In this document: piece by piece, positions 240-10,798 of the stretch | Layout: every line of letters begins with the position of its first letter | Numbering within the stretch: position 1 is the first letter of the stretch | Origin: Clostridia bacterium | Lineage (GTDB): Bacteria > Bacillota > Clostridia > Oscillospirales > Acutalibacteraceae | NCBI GenBank assembly: GCA_900754145.1 | Contig: CAAEBW010000109.1 | Span: 1 to 11,341 of the forward strand | Length of the DNA stretch: 11,341 nt | Direction of reading: 5' to 3' | Translations under genes and position numbers: made by a program | The notes under the pieces: model-generated | Databases searched by the model: none | Told to the model about the DNA's origin: nothing | What the model saw: the letters and a program-made list of their open reading frames with translations, nothing else

Positions 240-1025
240 CTATATACCAAATAATTTTTCCGTGTTTTTCCTTGCGGAGCTTAGCACCTTGTCAACCGTG
301 GTGCTTCTGATTTCGGCGATTTTTTTAGCCGTATGATAAATCATAGCCGAATGATTTATTTCCCCTCTGTGTGGAACGGGGGTTAAATACGGTGCGTCGG
401 TCTCAAGCAAAAAGCGGTCCTCGGGGAGCATTTCTACCACCTCGGGGAGCTTTTTGGCGTTTTTGAAGGTTATAACTCCCCCGATTCCTATATACATACC
501 TAATTCCAGTATTTCTTTTGCCATCTCGGGACTGCCCGAAAAGCTGTGAACAACACCCTTTGGTCGGTGCTTTTTTAAAATTTCAAGGGTGTCGGCGTGT
601 GCGTCTCGGTCGTGGACGATAACGGGGAGCTTAAGCTTATTCGCAAGGATTAACTGCTCCTCAAAAAGGGCTTTCTGCTCCTCCTTATTGTCCGAAACCC
701 AGTAGTAGTCAAGCCCGATTTCGCCGATTGCAACACATTTTTTGTGCCTTGCAAGCTCTTCTATTTCCGAAACCCTGCCGCCGCCGATATTTTCGGGGTG
801 AACGCCCACCGCGGCGTAAATGTAGGGGTATTTTTCGGCAAAGGCGAGGGCTTTTTTGGAAGACTCGGTATCGCACCCGCAGTTGATTACGCCGCATACC
901 CCCTGTCGGGGCAGTGAGTCCAAAAGCTCATCACGGATTTTGTCGAATTTTGCGTCATCATAATGAGCGTGGCTGTCGAAAATCAGGGGCTCGTTTAAAG
1001 GACTTTCCTCTAAAAAATCTATCAT
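240..1025 (-). CDS. tatD: TatD family metal-dependent deoxyribonuclease
   Basis: This is a cytoplasmic two-metal hydrolase of the TatD/YcfH family (TIM-barrel amidohydrolase superfamily), a DNase thought to act in DNA repair and turnover. At 261 residues it has the usual family length. Metal-ligand motifs appear in order: FDSHAH (H19, H21), GVHPE near 74-78, GEIGLDYY with E102, IVHDRDAH with H138, VHSFSG with H160, and LETDAPYL with D210. About 13 extra residues precede the first motif. The ATG at 1025 is kept because it overlaps the metG stop as ATGA and no later Met or obvious ribosome site offers a start. metG-tatD adjacency is common in Firmicutes, so the context fits an ordinary housekeeping copy. 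The family is well identified; its in vivo substrate is not known from sequence. Confidence 0.95.
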   Translation of the reverse strand: MIDFLEESPLNEPLIFDSHAHYDDAKFDKIRDELLDSLPRQGVCGVINCGCDTESSKKALAFAEKYPYIYAAVGVHPENIGGGRVSEIEELARHKKCVAIGEIGLDYYWVSDNKEEQKALFEEQLILANKLKLPVIVHDRDAHADTLEILKKHRPKGVVHSFSGSPEMAKEILELGMYIGIGGVITFKNAKKLPEVVEMLPEDRFLLETDAPYLTPVPHRGEINHSAMIYHTAKKIAEIRSTTVDKVLSSARKNTEKLFGI

Positions 1026-2923
1026 CTTATCTTACTTCCCGCGGGGACATTGTCGATAAACAGCACCTTGACATCGTCTTCGGCACAGTCGGCGGCTAAA
1101 ATCATACCGTTGGACTCGACGCCGCAAAGCTTAGCGGGCTTAAGGTTCGCCACAACGATTACGGTGTGTCTGATAAGCTCCTCGGGTTTGTAGTACTTGG
1201 CAATGCCCGAGGCTACCGTTCTCGGCGTTCCGCTGCCGTCGTCAAGGGTTAATTTTAAAAGCTTTTTCGCTTTCGGAATAGGCTCGCAGGCGGTGATTTT
1301 AGCCGCCTTAAGCTCAACCTTTGCAAAGTCCTCTATTCCGATTTGGGCAATACCCTCAATTTTTTCAGGCTCTGCCTTTGCTTCCTGCTCGGCGGCTATT
1401 TCGGCTAAAACCTTTTCAGTATCTAAACGGGGGAAGAGGTTAGCTGTTTTCTCGGGTGTGTAACTGTCAGCGGCGCGCAGCTCTTCGCTGATACTGTCTC
1501 CCGCAATGTTTTGAGCGGTTTCGGGCATAATGGGACGAAGTAACACACCGATAATTTTGATAAGGTCTAAAAGGTTGTAAAGAACATCGTTAAGGCGGTC
1601 TTTTTGCGCCTCGTCCTTTGCAAGCGCCCAGGGCATTGTCTCGTCAATATACTTGTTGCAACGCTTAGCTAAATCCAAAACAGCGGCACAGGCGTCGGCA
1701 TTACGGTAATCGTCCATACACTTGTGATATTTGGAGATACAGGTCTCAGCAAAACCGAAAAGCTCTTTATCTAAATCTTCTGTAATTTCGTGTTTTAGGG
1801 CAGTACCGCCGAAATACTTTTTGGTCATAGCCACGGTACGGCTTACAAGGTTGCCTATAGTATTTGCAAGGTCGGCGTTAAAGACATTTATAAAGCTTTC
1901 GTAAGTAAAGGTTCCGTCATTACCGAAAGGCATTTGAGAAAGAAGATAGTAACGAACCGCGTCGGCACCGAAGCGGTTTGCCAATTTGTCGGCATAAACC
2001 ACATTGCCCTTGGATTTTGACATTTTATCCTCACCTACAAGCACCCACGGATGCCCCAAAACCTGCTTGGGGAGAGGCAAGCCTAATGCCATTAAAATAA
2101 TAGGCCAGTAAATGGTGTGGAAGCGGACAATATCCTTGCCGATAACATGCAGGTCTGCAGGCCAGAGCTTACCGAATTTATCGGTACTGCCGTCGGGATT
2201 GTAGCCGATACCCGTAATATAGTTGGAAAGCGCGTCAATCCAAACATAAATAATGTGCTTATCGTCAAACTCAACCGGCACGCCCCATTTAAAGGAGGAA
2301 CGGGAAACACAAAGGTCTTGAAGTCCCGGCTTTAAGAAGTTGTTTATCATCTCGTTTTTGCGGGATTCGGGCTTAATAAAATCGGGGTTTTCCTCGAAAT
2401 ACTTTAATAATCTGTCCTGATATTTGCTGAGCCTTAAGAAGTAAGCCTCTTCCTTGGAGTCGATAACCTCTCTGCCGCAGTCGGGACATTTACCGTCTAC
2501 TAACTGGGATTCGGTATAAAATGACTCGCAGGGAACACAGTATTTTCCCTCATAGGTGCTTTTGTAAATATCCCCCTGCTCGTAAAGCTTGGTGAAAATT
2601 CTCTGTACTGCCTTTTCGTGATCGGCATCGGTAGTACGGATGAATTTATCGTAGGAAGTATTAAGGCTGTCCCAAACAGCTTTAATGTTTGCGGCGGCAT
2701 TATCCACATACTCTTTAGGGGTAATACCCTGCTCCTTGGCTTTTTCCTCAATTTTCTGGCCGTGCTCGTCGGAGCCGGTCATTAAATAAACCTCATAACC
2801 CATTTGTTTTTTATAGCGGGCTATCATATCAGCGAGAACTATATCGTAAGCGTTGCCGATATGCGGCTTGCTGGAAGCGTAGGCTATAGCAGTAGTAATG
2901 TAAAACTTTTTCTTTTCAGACAT
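1022..2923 (-). CDS. metG: Methionyl-tRNA synthetase with C-terminal tRNA-binding domain
   Basis: This class I aminoacyl-tRNA synthetase charges tRNA-Met and initiator tRNA with methionine in the cytoplasm. The HIGH signature is HIGN at 21-24, and KMSKS is exact at 300-304. A zinc knuckle of the CxxC...CxxC type lies at C129/C132 and C146/C149. The anticodon-binding helical domain covers about 350-500. A Glu/Ala-rich linker (about 505-525) leads to an OB-fold tRNA-binding domain at about 530-633, homologous to Trbp111, which gives the long dimeric form common in Firmicutes. AAGGAGG precedes the ATG with 8-base spacing and overlaps the TAA stop of the upstream membrane-protein gene; the gap is 13 bases. 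The 3' end overlaps tatD by 4 nt. No T-box leader is visible; expression presumably comes from the rlmB promoter. Confidence 0.98.
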   Translation of the reverse strand: MSEKKKFYITTAIAYASSKPHIGNAYDIVLADMIARYKKQMGYEVYLMTGSDEHGQKIEEKAKEQGITPKEYVDNAAANIKAVWDSLNTSYDKFIRTTDADHEKAVQRIFTKLYEQGDIYKSTYEGKYCVPCESFYTESQLVDGKCPDCGREVIDSKEEAYFLRLSKYQDRLLKYFEENPDFIKPESRKNEMINNFLKPGLQDLCVSRSSFKWGVPVEFDDKHIIYVWIDALSNYITGIGYNPDGSTDKFGKLWPADLHVIGKDIVRFHTIYWPIILMALGLPLPKQVLGHPWVLVGEDKMSKSKGNVVYADKLANRFGADAVRYYLLSQMPFGNDGTFTYESFINVFNADLANTIGNLVSRTVAMTKKYFGGTALKHEITEDLDKELFGFAETCISKYHKCMDDYRNADACAAVLDLAKRCNKYIDETMPWALAKDEAQKDRLNDVLYNLLDLIKIIGVLLRPIMPETAQNIAGDSISEELRAADSYTPEKTANLFPRLDTEKVLAEIAAEQEAKAEPEKIEGIAQIGIEDFAKVELKAAKITACEPIPKAKKLLKLTLDDGSGTPRTVASGIAKYYKPEELIRHTVIVVANLKPAKLCGVESNGMILAADCAEDDVKVLFIDNVPAGSKIR

Positions 2924-2936
2924 TTGTATTTCCTCC

Positions 2937-5582
2937 TTATGGCTTTTGAGTTAGATAAAGAATATAAGAAACTGCGGTTGAAGCAAGGCTGTATAATAAA
3001 ACCGTAACACCGCTCATAAGCGAGCCCGAGCCGTCAAAGGACATATAGGCGAAGAGCACCGCGCCGAGAACCGACGCTATTACATAAAGAACGGTAAGCA
3101 AAATATTGGATTTTTTTATCCTTGTGGCGTTGCTGATAATTGCGGCAAGCCCCACGGGATTGCCCCTGTAGGCGGCAGGAGCGGAGCAGGCGGGGACGGG
3201 GGGTACCGCGTTTTTATACATATGACAGCCCGCCGCGCTCATAACCTTTACCGAATCGCTGTAAAGCCCCATATAGTCGCAAATCATTTCCTCGGTCATA
3301 TTCGGGTCGGAGCTGTTAATTAACATTGTGACCCCGAGCGCCGAAACGCGGCGCAGCTCTTTGGCAATATCCTCGCGCACGGTGTAGCGCACGGTAATTA
3401 GGGCGCACGCCTTATCCTGTGACGCCACATAAACGGGGAAAAGCCCCTGACGGAGTATTTTTCGGTCAACCTCAACGCTCGGAACCTCGATTCCGTGCGC
3501 CTCCATAAGGGTGCGGTTGCCTATAAAGAGCAGTCGGTTGTCAACCCAGCCCGAAATACCCATTTTATCCTCGTACTTTACGGTGTCCGAATCGGGCAGT
3601 ACAACATTTCCGCCCGTGCCCGCTATTTTTTTGAAGATGGGGGCTAACGGACTGTTCATAGCCTCCGTAAGCGAGGCGGCGCGGATTATCGTGTCATCAA
3701 TGCTGTTGTCCGACAGAATCTGAAGCTGATGCATTTGCACCGTGCCCGAGGGGAAAAGCTCGTCGGCGCTGAAAACTACCGCGTTTGCGTTTTCGATCCG
3801 CTCCGCACCTGTTTTTCCCGCAATCATAGCGCCCATACGGGACAGCCGTTTGGCGGAGGAGTAAAGCGGCATACTGTCTATCATAAATATTACGGGCAAT
3901 GCGGCAAAGCACTGAATTGCCGCCGCGCTGTAAAAGCCGTATATAATTCCGTCAAAGTAGGAGGCGCAGGCAAAGCCGACGATAACCGAAAGCAAGAGTG
4001 AAATCACCGTTACTATAGGCAGTCTGCCCGATAAAAATACGCGGAAGGTGGAATATTTCATATAATCGTTTATCTGCTTTGTCTTTTGCGGGGCGGCGGC
4101 GAGAACGTCACCCTCAATCGCGTTTTTCGCCATTGCAAAGGTGACCGCCTGATCGCCTATAAGCTTTACCGCCCGCTTAGGCGAAGCGGCGGAAATCTGC
4201 CTGAAGCCCTCTAAAAGATAGGCGGAGTTCATAAAGGAGCAGAGCGCGCGGATAAAGAGTATTACCGCGCAAAGCAGTATAAGGTCGAGCGCAATCTCGT
4301 TTTTGAATACCGCGGCAACCGAGTAGGCGATAACAAAAAGCGAGGCGGTAGCCGCTAAGACATCGGGAGCCGAGCGGCGGCTGAATATTTTAGGCAGACT
4401 TTTGAACATATCGGCGTTGATAAGTGTTATTATTACCAAAACCGCGGCGCATATTATATTTGCCGTTCTTGTACTGCTAAGCAGCAGCTCGGACATAAAG
4501 GGAAGCTTTGCTACAATAAGCAAAATAAGGCACAGTCCCGAGAAAACAGTCCTTAAAAAGGCGGAGCGTTTTTTAAGCGAAAACCGCCTTAAAAACCGCT
4601 TTGCATCATTTTCGTCGGAAAATTCCTCTTTCGGTATGTATTCCTCGAACTCGGACAGCTCCAGCTGTACCTCGCTTTCCGCTTCGTCGGTACCTGCTTC
4701 GGGAAGACCTGTAAGCTCACCTGTTAAATCTATCGGTCTCGTCTTAGAGCTTACACTTATCCGCGAGGTATTATCCGCTCCGGATACAGGGGTGAATTTA
4801 ATTGTTGCCGTGTTTTGAATATCGGGCGTTTCGGGCTTTGCCGCGGGGGCGGAGGTGTCAATATCGGAAATTATGTTGGATACATTGGTCTGAACCTGAC
4901 TTACCTTAGGCAGGGAGGAAACAAGGTCCTCAAAGACCTCCCGCTCGGGCGCGGGGGACACCTCATCCTTTTCGGTGGGTTTATCGGGCGCTTCGGCTTT
5001 TTCGTATTTCCCGAGGTCGTCAAATGCGATTTCGTATTTTTGTGATAGCTTTTCAAGCGCCTTTTGGCTTTCGCTGTTTAAAATTTCCGCAACGCTTTCA
5101 AGCCTGTAGGTAGGTGCTGATTCCATGGCGCTGTCCCCGTCCTCGCCGTCCATAATAAAAGGTCGGCATTTTTCAAGCAGAGACTGCTCGTGCCGAGGGG
5201 GCTCCTTTGCCGCGAGGGGCTTGGGGTCGGTGTCGGACTGCCTTTCGGCTTTCACCCTTTTAAAGCTTTCCGAAAAGGCGTTAAGGTCGAAACCGTCATT
5301 ATCCTCGGGGTCGGGCTTTTCAGAGCGGTCCGCCGTAGGAACGGGAGCGGCTTCGGGTTTTTTATCTGCTTTAGCCTCAAGCATACGCTTTTTAAGGGAT
5401 TCCAGCGCGCCTGTTGAAGAAATTTCGCCGTCATTGGAATTTGACGAAAAATTTAAAACCTCGTCGGGAGTCAGCGCGTGATTGGGATGTGCCGCGCCGT
5501 CTGTTATAAATGAAAAGCCGTCGTCCTCGCTCTCTAACAGCGAGAAAAGCTCCTCATTTTCCTTTTTTGAAAAAAAGCTCAT
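2937..5582 (-). CDS. Degenerate P1B-type ATPase-like membrane protein, probably catalytically dead
   Basis: The 881-residue product has a long hydrophilic, mostly acidic and probably disordered N-terminus (1 to about 335). The rest has the layout of a heavy-metal P1B ATPase: eight hydrophobic segments (about 344-362, 374-391, 405-427, 431-450, 521-541, 546-568, 826-846, 854-876) grouped 4+2+2. The region from about 560 to 606 follows the P1B metal-site helix into the P-domain, but the CPC position reads LPV (562-564) and DKTGT is replaced by VVFSADEL (602-609, S605 for the phosphorylated Asp). A short cytoplasmic part (about 452-520) lacks TGE. The nucleotide-domain match is recognisable (GISGWVDNRLLFIGNR, 675-690), yet the SEHPL position reads NSPL (643-646), the TGDN position reads NSSD (756-759), and GDGxNDxP is absent. 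There is no metal-binding HMA domain. The ATG at 5582 overlaps rlmB by 4 nt and has AAGGAGGA 4 bases upstream. The frame is open throughout, so it looks like a maintained pseudoenzyme and not a decaying gene. Its function is unknown. Confidence 0.8.
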   Translation of the reverse strand: MSFFSKKENEELFSLLESEDDGFSFITDGAAHPNHALTPDEVLNFSSNSNDGEISSTGALESLKKRMLEAKADKKPEAAPVPTADRSEKPDPEDNDGFDLNAFSESFKRVKAERQSDTDPKPLAAKEPPRHEQSLLEKCRPFIMDGEDGDSAMESAPTYRLESVAEILNSESQKALEKLSQKYEIAFDDLGKYEKAEAPDKPTEKDEVSPAPEREVFEDLVSSLPKVSQVQTNVSNIISDIDTSAPAAKPETPDIQNTATIKFTPVSGADNTSRISVSSKTRPIDLTGELTGLPEAGTDEAESEVQLELSEFEEYIPKEEFSDENDAKRFLRRFSLKKRSAFLRTVFSGLCLILLIVAKLPFMSELLLSSTRTANIICAAVLVIITLINADMFKSLPKIFSRRSAPDVLAATASLFVIAYSVAAVFKNEIALDLILLCAVILFIRALCSFMNSAYLLEGFRQISAASPKRAVKLIGDQAVTFAMAKNAIEGDVLAAAPQKTKQINDYMKYSTFRVFLSGRLPIVTVISLLLSVIVGFACASYFDGIIYGFYSAAAIQCFAALPVIFMIDSMPLYSSAKRLSRMGAMIAGKTGAERIENANAVVFSADELFPSGTVQMHQLQILSDNSIDDTIIRAASLTEAMNSPLAPIFKKIAGTGGNVVLPDSDTVKYEDKMGISGWVDNRLLFIGNRTLMEAHGIEVPSVEVDRKILRQGLFPVYVASQDKACALITVRYTVREDIAKELRRVSALGVTMLINSSDPNMTEEMICDYMGLYSDSVKVMSAAGCHMYKNAVPPVPACSAPAAYRGNPVGLAAIISNATRIKKSNILLTVLYVIASVLGAVLFAYMSFDGSGSLMSGVTVLLYSLASTAVSYILYLTQKP

Positions 5583-6334
5583 AACTTCCTCCTTTTTCGC
5601 ACTACCTCATACATAAGCACGCCCGCCGCCACCGAGGCGTTGAGTGAGTTGATTTTTCCGAACATAGGCAGGCTTATTATCCCGTCGCACTTTTTGGCGG
5701 TAAGCGCGCCGATTCCGCTGCCCTCGTTACCGATTACAAGGGCTAAGGGACAGTCAAAATCGGTTTTTGTGTAGTCCTCGCCGTCCATATCCGCACCGAA
5801 GACCCACACGCCGCGCTCCTTTAGCTCATCTATCGTATTAGCGATATTTGTAACCCTTGCGACAGGCATATATTCGAGCGCGCCGCACGCCGCCTTGGCA
5901 ACCGTAGCGTTAAGGGAGGCACTCCTGCGCTTAGGGATAATTATTCCGTGAGCGCCGCAAATTTCGGCAGTTCTTATAATCGCGCCTAAATTGTGCGGGT
6001 CCTCTATTTCATCGCATATTATTATAAACGGCTTTTCATTTTTCTGTTCTGCAAGGGCGAAAATATCCTCAACCGTGGCATATTCCTGCGAGGCGATCAT
6101 AACCGCCACGCCCTGATGATTAGCTCCCCCGCAGTAATAATCAAGCTTTTGGGGGCTTACCTCTTTTATAAGCACCCCTTTGGCGCGGCATTTAGCGATT
6201 ATCGCGGCGACCGAGCCGCCCGAAACACCGTGTGCCACCAGCAGACGGTCGATTTCTCTGCCTGACCGCACCGCCTCAAGTACGGGGTTTCTGCCGCATA
6301 TTATATTTCCCGTGTGTTCTGTGTTATTATCCAT
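5579..6334 (-). CDS. rlmB: TrmH-family 23S rRNA (guanosine-2'-O-)-methyltransferase
   Basis: This is a SPOUT (knotted) methyltransferase of the TrmH group 3/RlmB type. It uses S-adenosylmethionine to 2'-O-methylate a guanosine in 23S rRNA (G2251 in E. coli). The 251 residues match the family length. An N-terminal substrate-binding domain (about 10-80, starting IICGRNPVLEAV) is followed by the three SPOUT motifs: DEIEDPHNLGAIIRTAE (108-124, with the conserved Asn and Arg), LVIGNEGSGI (199-208), and ISLPMFGKINSLNASVAAG (220-238). It is the first gene of the operon. The ATG at 6334 has an AAAAGGAT-like ribosome site about 11 bases upstream. Related TrmH enzymes act on tRNA, so the exact target nucleotide is inferred from the family. 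Confidence 0.93.
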   Translation of the reverse strand: MDNNTEHTGNIICGRNPVLEAVRSGREIDRLLVAHGVSGGSVAAIIAKCRAKGVLIKEVSPQKLDYYCGGANHQGVAVMIASQEYATVEDIFALAEQKNEKPFIIICDEIEDPHNLGAIIRTAEICGAHGIIIPKRRSASLNATVAKAACGALEYMPVARVTNIANTIDELKERGVWVFGADMDGEDYTKTDFDCPLALVIGNEGSGIGALTAKKCDGIISLPMFGKINSLNASVAAGVLMYEVVRKRRKL

Positions 6335-9802: not shown

Positions 9803-10774
9803 TCAAAACGGATTGAAAAAGGATATTGTCACCGTATAAGCGATATACAGCACAAGCAGTAATATTCCCTGCGCGCGGGTGAACTTGCCGCGCAGGAGCA
9901 TAGGAATGACCGCGAGCGCCAACAGCCCCAAGCAAACGGGAATATCAAGGAAAAGGTTTTGCGGGCAGGCGGTAAGTCTTCCGCCCGAAACAAGCGAGCA
10001 AATCGGCAGAATTATAGCTAAATCGATTAGATTCGCGCCTATGATATTTCCGACAGACAGCGAGGACTGCTTTTTGATAACGGCGCTTACCGTGGTGACA
10101 AGCTCGGGCAGCGAGGTGCCGACGGCGACAACGGTCGCCGAAATCACCGCCTCGGAAACACCGCTCGCCGCGGCAATTTCGGTGGCGGAATCGACGAGAA
10201 AGTCCGCACCGACGACTATACCCGCCGCGCCAATGATGAATTTTATTATATTAAACGGAATTTCTTTCTTTTCAAATACCCGCTTTTCGTTCTGTGCCGA
10301 TTCGGCTTTTCCGCTTTTAATGCTTTCGTAAACCGAGACGGCGAATATTATAAGCAACAGCACGCTACCGATAAGCGAAAAGCTTTTACCCAAGGAGGAA
10401 ATATAGAGTATCACGGCGGCGAGCAGTAAGAGCAGGGACTTTGCGGCGTACTGAGAGCGCTTTACCGCGGCGGGGATACAGATTATCGAAATCGCCATAA
10501 TAAGTCCCGTGTTCGCCGTGACCGAGCCTACCGCGTTGCCTATCGCAATCGCGTTAGAGCCGCGGGACGCTCCGAGACAGGAGACTATAAGCTCGGGCAG
10601 GGTAGTCGCAAGGCTTACGACCGTCGCTCCGATTACAAAATGAGGTATTCCCGAAACCTCCGCCATCCATACGGCGGCGTCAACAAAAAAATCCCCGCCC
10701 TTTATTATAAGTATCAGACCGCAGATAAACAGAATTATCAGCGCCCACATAGGCCAGCCGACCGCTGAAATCAT
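9803..10774 (-). CDS. CaCA-family sodium/calcium (cation) exchanger, YrbG-like
   Basis: This is an inner-membrane cation antiporter of the Ca2+/cation antiporter superfamily, probably expelling Ca2+ in exchange for Na+ or H+. The 323 residues carry about ten hydrophobic segments in two inverted halves joined by a charged loop (about 152-172). The alpha-1 repeat has ATVVSLATTLPEL (50-62) and GNAVGSVTAN (79-88); alpha-2 has ATVVAVGTSLPEL (213-225) and GNIIGANLIDL (242-252). Thr-x-Leu-Pro-Glu and the Asn residues are the known ion ligands. Alpha-1 has Ala where Gly is common (SLATTLPE), as a variant. The ATG at 10774 is chosen because GGAGG lies 7 bases before it; an in-frame TTG at 10795 would put that site inside the coding region. 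It starts 24 bases after the dehydrogenase stop, so both are probably one transcript. The ion is not determined by sequence. Confidence 0.9.
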   Translation of the reverse strand: MISAVGWPMWALIILFICGLILIIKGGDFFVDAAVWMAEVSGIPHFVIGATVVSLATTLPELIVSCLGASRGSNAIAIGNAVGSVTANTGLIMAISIICIPAAVKRSQYAAKSLLLLLAAVILYISSLGKSFSLIGSVLLLIIFAVSVYESIKSGKAESAQNEKRVFEKKEIPFNIIKFIIGAAGIVVGADFLVDSATEIAAASGVSEAVISATVVAVGTSLPELVTTVSAVIKKQSSLSVGNIIGANLIDLAIILPICSLVSGGRLTACPQNLFLDIPVCLGLLALAVIPMLLRGKFTRAQGILLLVLYIAYTVTISFFNPF

Positions 10775-10781
10775 TTTAATT

Positions 10782-10786
10782 CCTCC
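10782..10786 (-). promoter_or_regulatory. Ribosome site that sets the exchanger start
   Basis: On the minus strand TTTTTGGAGGAATTAAAATG places GGAGG 7 bases before the ATG at 10774. The longer reading from TTG at 10795 would bury this site and has no comparable site of its own, so the shorter 323-residue protein is preferred. Confidence 0.8.
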
Positions 10787-10798
10787 AAAAAGCAACCT

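Follow-up and report, generated by a model that had tools for sequence, protein, structure and literature searches.

A candidate order-wide family of pump-dead P1B-type ATPases encoded downstream of rlmB in Clostridia

The locus and the encoded protein

The window, meaning the whole stretch of 11,341 nucleotides that was analysed (contig CAAEBW010000109.1 of the Clostridia bacterium assembly GCA_900754145.1), contains four genes arranged head-to-tail on the minus strand in the order rlmB, a putative pseudo-P1B-ATPase gene, metG and tatD:

5579-6334, minus strand: rlmB, 23S rRNA 2'-O-methyltransferase (profile match); a near-constant neighbour that overlaps the start of the pseudo-ATPase gene
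2937-5582, minus strand: putative pseudo-P1B-ATPase gene, 881 aa (open frame, profile match, structure model and motif alignment)
1022-2923, minus strand: metG, downstream of the pseudo-ATPase gene (profile match and locus comparison)
240-1025, minus strand: tatD-family hydrolase gene, next in the run after metG (profile match)

The rlmB stop and the ATG of the pseudo-ATPase gene share 4 nt (5579-5582), and the TAA of the latter overlaps the Shine-Dalgarno sequence of metG (TAAGGAGGAAATACAAATG, minus strand). The frame coordinates and the position of the Shine-Dalgarno sequence thus bear out a preliminary description of this DNA, which had reported an intact frame of 881 codons with both overlaps. 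A 4-nt overlap also exists between metG and tatD. Elsewhere in the window, positions 9803-10795 (minus strand) encode a calcium/sodium antiporter family protein (TIGR00367 above cut-off). The parts of the pseudo-ATPase protein are the following:

4623-5582, minus strand: N-terminal tail, residues 1-320, mostly of low model confidence, with 70 D+E against 35 K+R
4191-4613, minus strand: first membrane block, residues 324-464, where four helices are expected of a P1B ATPase (model helices)
4026-4178, minus strand: remnant of the A-domain, residues 469-519, shortened and missing the TGE part (model and hhalign alignment)
3882-4022, minus strand: helices 5-6, residues 521-567, with LPV at 562-564 in place of CPC (model and alignment)
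3744-3770, minus strand: SADELFPSG at residues 605-613, in place of DKTGTLTxG (alignments)
3384-3743, minus strand: N-domain-like lobe, residues 614-733 (PDB-profile match and alignment)
3300-3308, minus strand: DPN of the TGDN loop, residues 759-761 (alignments)
2949-3152, minus strand: last two membrane helices, residues 811-878 (model)

The structure model of the window protein has a mean pLDDT of 64.9 and a pTM of 0.55, with pLDDT mostly below 50 over residues 1-308, mostly 62-92 over residues 310-840 and 47-66 per block in the last helices. Its helices at 324-464, 521-582 and 811-878 agree with the 4+2+2 membrane layout previously proposed. The A-domain is shortened, not merely mutated, as 26 residues are aligned by hhalign with the 79 residues of the TGE-bearing block in a true pump. 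Short conserved stretches occur in the tail in the window-like set (ALTPxEV, LLEKCxPF, YxLESVAEIL, ISDID, TFTPV and IDLTGE).

Relationship to P1B-type ATPases and the altered catalytic sites

The P-type ATPase superfamily of enzymes takes its name from a phosphorylated aspartate. The window protein is matched by the NCBIfam CopA profile (5.7e-19) and by PDB entry 3rfu (1.7e-10 over residues 521-780), and hhalign against P1B gave 98.2 and 3.9e-14 over 422 columns. The best structural rows were 3rfu, 7si7 and 4bbj; Foldseek TM-scores were modest (0.30-0.34 by query, five best rows), and the absence of a row from these structure-library searches excludes nothing. Taken together, the CopA, 3rfu, hhalign and Foldseek matches led us to reject a chance likeness to P1B pumps. 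The fold obtained by structure prediction and Foldseek is that of P1B ATPases, and not the unrelated one that the preliminary description had named as evidence against its reading. The CopA profile further matches all 30 members of set A1 at E <= 0.001, and 19 of these 30 give PF00702 matches at E <= 1, the best being 0.00037. Wherever bits were available, the Pfam and NCBIfam models all stayed below their curated cut-offs: the window protein scored 13.4 against 26.4 bits for PF00702 and 67.8 against 1316 bits for CopA, and among eight deeper members seven had no Pfam match at 0.01, the other (P0232) reaching 23.4 of the 26.4 bits of PF00702. By fold and homology the family belongs with the P1B ATPases, the membrane block and the P and N domains all being present. 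It has this fold, membrane layout and P and N domains in common with the heavy-metal pumps CopA and ZntA, but differs from them in its long tail, rlmB-adjacent position and shortened A-domain, and in that DKTGT, SEHP, GDGxND and the metal-site triplet are all missing. In an unrooted tree of 62 rows, built by a quick method and containing three long terminal branches, 36 pseudo rows and 26 P1B rows are split by one long branch with an SH-aLRT of 100. True P1B pumps were also present in all six genomes tested.

Each catalytic change that the preliminary description had read from the window was recovered: LPV for CPC (L562-P563-V564), Ser for the phosphorylated Asp of DKTGT (S605), the missing His of SEHPL (N643-S644-P645-L646) and NSSD for TGDN (N756-S757-S758-D759), the protein also being without TGES or GDGxND. 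The changes are not confined to the window. The patterns D.TGT, SEHP, GDG.ND and G[MH][TS]CxxC were found in none of 294 proteins (230 proteins of the P series and 64 loci, some near-identical), and GDG.ND was equally absent from 43 further rows and 21 weak-set members in which motifs were checked. The sole DKTG among the 294 proteins lies in the linker of L044, and the only two in the 43 and 21 further sequences (L135 and L136) fall within the tail; catalytically intact close homologues, the finding by which the gene could have been dismissed as a single decayed copy, were not found among the sequences examined. TGES or TGEP strings occur seven times among 320 proteins, all in tails and at least 644 residues from the C-terminus. 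When the best match was opened in 20 of the weakest-match genomes and in G041, all 21 were without DKTG, GDG.ND, CPC-like and TGES strings; true P1B pumps from the same searches mostly carry all four motif types.

The preliminary description had proposed that the conservation of S605 and of LPV be checked, and the two sites behave differently. In an alignment of 80 sequences (the window, 64 loci and 15 proteins of the P series), position 605 is occupied by N in 27, S in 19, D in 8 and H in 7, with other residues in the rest. Asp also stands there in 23 of the 69 rows of the deep set, never followed by KTGT. This might be taken to mean that pumping persists by some unusual chemistry; however, with the three catalytic strings missing throughout the 294 proteins, the A-domain shortened and His at position 644 in none of the 149 rows of the two alignments, such a reading is hardly credible. 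Position 644, the His of SEHP, is S in 80/80 sequences, and in the deep set S in 34/69 and G in 27/69, His in 0/69. At 562-564 the loss is uniform, as CPC, SPC, CPH, TPC and CPS occur at this site in 0/80 sequences; P563 is retained in 73/80. Metal-triplet-like strings are present elsewhere in 19 of 320 proteins, at a distance from the C-terminus that differs from that of the 562-564 site. The retained membrane layout could be that of a passive channel or carrier derived from a pump, but the missing triplet, together with the observation that R344 (47/69) is the only charged helix-block position among the 45 best-conserved columns, makes this very improbable.

The altered sites carry a conserved signature of their own. 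In the 80-sequence alignment, F610 is found in 80, P611 and G613 in 79 each, D759 in 79 and N761 in 80 sequences, and G675, W679, G688, N689 and R690 are each invariant. In the deep set of 69 the corresponding counts are 68 for G675 and G688, 66 for D759, 65 for Y733, 63 for F650, 62 for F610, 56 for P611, 53 for N761 and 46 for G613; N689 and R690 fall to 41/69 and 47/69, and G673 of GxG survives in 17/69. Across the deep rows, the most frequent residue of a column has an average share of 0.55 for the TGD loop and 0.53 for the P-site loop, against 0.44 for the N lobe and 0.33 for the helices, so that the two dead-site loops are on average the best-conserved parts.

The main rival to the scaffold reading developed below is prompted by G675, G688 and N689, which never vary in the window-like set. 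It is that of a ligand sensor, in which the N-domain-like lobe would bind a nucleotide or small molecule without hydrolysis and thereby alter shape or partner binding. These three residues align with the GxG and GN of the ATP pocket, S644 occupies the position of the stacking His, and both glycines remain nearly invariant in the deep set. However, the adenine-binding Glu and His of ATP7B and CopA are replaced in the window by T639 and S644, and the pocket glycines may be merely structural. A single family-wide pocket also appears unlikely because N689, R690 and S644 vary among the deep rows as given above. We regard the sensor as clearly the less probable of the two.

Distribution, selection and gene order

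A homologue search gave 618 homologues, 120 of them among the matches listed, and 64 genome loci were retrieved. Matches at E <= 1e-30 were obtained for 348 of the 394 genomes from the order, presumably GTDB Oscillospirales. Twenty of the 46 genomes without a match at this threshold were inspected, and one of them (G041) does carry the family (L175). Among the other 19, RlmB was below the cut-off in 11 and above it in eight; five of these eight have the family downstream of rlmB, and in three the locus ends 223-907 nt past rlmB. Since G041 and the five rlmB loci add to the 348, at least 354 of the 394 genomes, whose completeness is unstated, carry the family. In the class, 17 of 391 genomes match at E <= 1e-39 and all 17 belong to the order sample; 30 weaker matches (1.2e-28 to 9.5e-21) follow, of which the three inspected (L152-L154) were true P1B pumps. 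RlmB scored above its cut-off in 113 of 118 class genomes surveyed, and the family was found downstream of rlmB in none of the 30 best-scoring loci of the wider class. The family occurs in gut bacteria, and a named carrier is Zongyangia hominis (Oscillospiraceae), whose homologue is P0232.

Frames were open across the match in all 64 retrieved loci. Of eleven pairs analysed for dN/dS by NG86, with two saturated pairs set aside, omega was 0.05-0.15 in the C-terminal part (nine pairs, one value being rough because dS is 2.0 in that part), 0.10-0.25 in the tail (eight pairs) and 0.07-0.20 over the whole gene (nine pairs). RlmB and MetG, at 0.03-0.06, are under stronger constraint than the pseudo-ATPase. 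Together with the synteny described next, this purifying selection lends support to the earlier proposal that the gene is kept for a role. A few copies elsewhere do contain an inner stop, which would be expected of a pseudogene or single decayed copy; however, the 64 open frames, omega values of 0.05-0.25 and matches in 348 of 394 order genomes leave that explanation with negligible probability, and it was rejected. One copy of this kind, L092 (G028:C38:4464-6551), has an in-frame TGA, which may reflect damage to the copy, recoding or a faulty assembly.

The family gene directly follows an rlmB gene of the same strand in 63 of the 64 window-like loci, with a gap of at most 144 nt; the remaining locus, L035, starts at a contig end. 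With longer flanks rlmB was found upstream in 23 of 23 deep-set loci (20/20 long-flank against 20/30 short-flank loci, seven of the ten misses being among the 20 long-flank loci and the other three, G084, G298 and G195, resolved on longer flanks). In the weak set the count is 20 of 21 (14/21 on short flanks, with six of the seven misses resolved on longer ones). In L262, 632 nt separate rlmB from the family gene, and L265 (G007:C17), with no RlmB within 4.0 kb upstream, is the clear exception among the opened loci. Downstream, metG is present in 62 of 64 loci, other genes intervening in L053, L056, L060 and L064; the deep members differ from one another in what follows (EF-G-like genes, a gene that looks by eye like an epimerase, and others). 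A gene of about 690 aa resembling a translation GTPase adjoins the family gene in L118, L122, L124, L129 (with one small frame between) and L131, and is EF-G-like by eye in the four that were inspected. A membrane protein of about 385-415 aa, forming one cluster, directly follows the family gene in L053, L056, L060, L062, L063 and L064; the three that were scanned all match Wzy_C/O-antigen ligase (PF04932) above cut-off.

These translation-gene neighbours (rlmB, metG and, in several deep loci, EF-G-like genes), together with the largely retained P563, could point to a membrane-protein chaperone or a lipid or helix holdase that needs no ATP cycle and would hold a client helix or lipid in its membrane block. 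However, conservation is lower in the membrane helices than in the dead-site loops, and the downstream neighbours are inconstant; a holdase therefore seems doubtful.

In Bacillus subtilis the gene order is rlmB-yacP-sigH, and Rae1 has a ribosomal role. YacP/Rae1, of the NYN family, occupies the slot after rlmB in many further Clostridia, where the frame following rlmB reads as YacP/Rae1, by eye, in 12 of 30 class loci (same-contig neighbours, for example in G438). PF05991 frames of at most 217 aa were found in 35 of 118 class genomes against one of 117 order genomes, other matches lying in longer frames in both. In the order, 31 of 32 PF05991 (YacP) matches fall in frames of at least 833 aa, some with an inner stop, frames of this length being frequent in the class as well. 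YacP/Rae1 is a different, small protein family to which we claim no similarity for the pseudo-ATPase, and the shared rlmB slot is a likeness of position, not of function.

A possible scaffold or adaptor role

The present data show homology to P1B ATPases and their fold, loss of the motifs in all members examined, purifying selection, a single branch and a near-constant place after rlmB. The family would accordingly qualify, as judged from sequence, as a pseudoenzyme, being homologous to an enzyme, deprived of its catalytic residues and kept by selection. Since a phosphoenzyme cycle appears impossible, its members presumably do not pump, and the selected non-pumping role that the preliminary description had suggested gains support from the motif loss in all homologues examined, the dN/dS values and the synteny. 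The reading that we favour, with confidence that is evenly balanced, is that of a pump-dead P1B-type ATPase family, undescribed and spread over the order, whose members act as a membrane-anchored scaffold or adaptor; the role itself, deduced from what is lost, is the less sure part. This model proposes that the membrane block and the P/N head form a platform, on which the loops round the dead phosphorylation site may have become a binding surface (FPxG and DxN). Short helical motifs in the long acidic tail would serve to dock a partner from the cytosol, possibly [FY]x[VL][DE][DE]ILxE in deep members and LTPxEV, YxLESVAEIL and others in the clade of the window. In the window, expression may be coupled to rlmB through the gene overlap.

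The tail provides some material for this model. An example of the short motif with which deep members start is YNVDDILEEIKRK. The pattern [FY]x[VL][DE][DE]ILxE, composed after the sequences had been seen, occurs in 30 of 46 deep members, in 11 of the 21 deepest ones and in only 12 of the 294 window-like proteins, against means of 0.08, 0.14 and 1.3, respectively, in shuffled sequences. In the model of a deep member, residues 7-21 form a helix. Tail length varies several-fold: in P0165, P0173, P0180, P0238 and P0239, which are 1292-1681 aa long, the N-terminal tail is greatly extended. The motif as a shared docking code was unsupported, a search of 12 genomes with the DNA pattern having given eight matches, of which two are the start of family members themselves. 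Another of the eight lies at the C-terminus of a different membrane protein (L191, 1467-2300, minus strand, genome G233), which ends in YDLEDILREVREMNANK and resembles the family tail motif; the only relatives found for it are weak, occur in 3 of 147 genomes and are all without the motif.

A more far-reaching scenario, which we consider rather improbable, is that the P-type fold was converted once, early in the whole order, into a non-catalytic membrane receptor that docks a cytosolic machine through its disordered arm and dead site. The machine could be translation-linked, because rlmB, metG and EF-G-like genes are neighbours and the slot is used by yacP/rae1 elsewhere. If true, prokaryotes would possess a class of P-type ATPases that is non-catalytic. 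An order-wide lineage that is without the catalytic cycle and retains the fold, a dead-site signature of its own and a near-fixed locus would constitute a pseudoenzyme class. TMEM94 is a eukaryotic, atypical P-type-like membrane protein, and its likeness to the family is one of description only. The apicomplexan guanylyl cyclases with a P4-ATPase domain, the activity of which is mentioned in the title of the report, likewise appear to have a P-type ATPase body within a larger non-classical protein; however, they are eukaryotic, of another subfamily and fused to a cyclase, being set apart here by their description and not by sequence (PMC7858053). Among the titles and abstract openings of open-licence PMC articles no description of the present family was found, in keeping with the preliminary description, which knew of no such family. 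The fold is thus a known one, and what would be new is a pseudoenzyme lineage inside a known superfamily. Its members are at risk of being misnamed: P0245 carries the NCBI name 'cation-translocating P-type ATPase', yet has none of the catalytic motifs.
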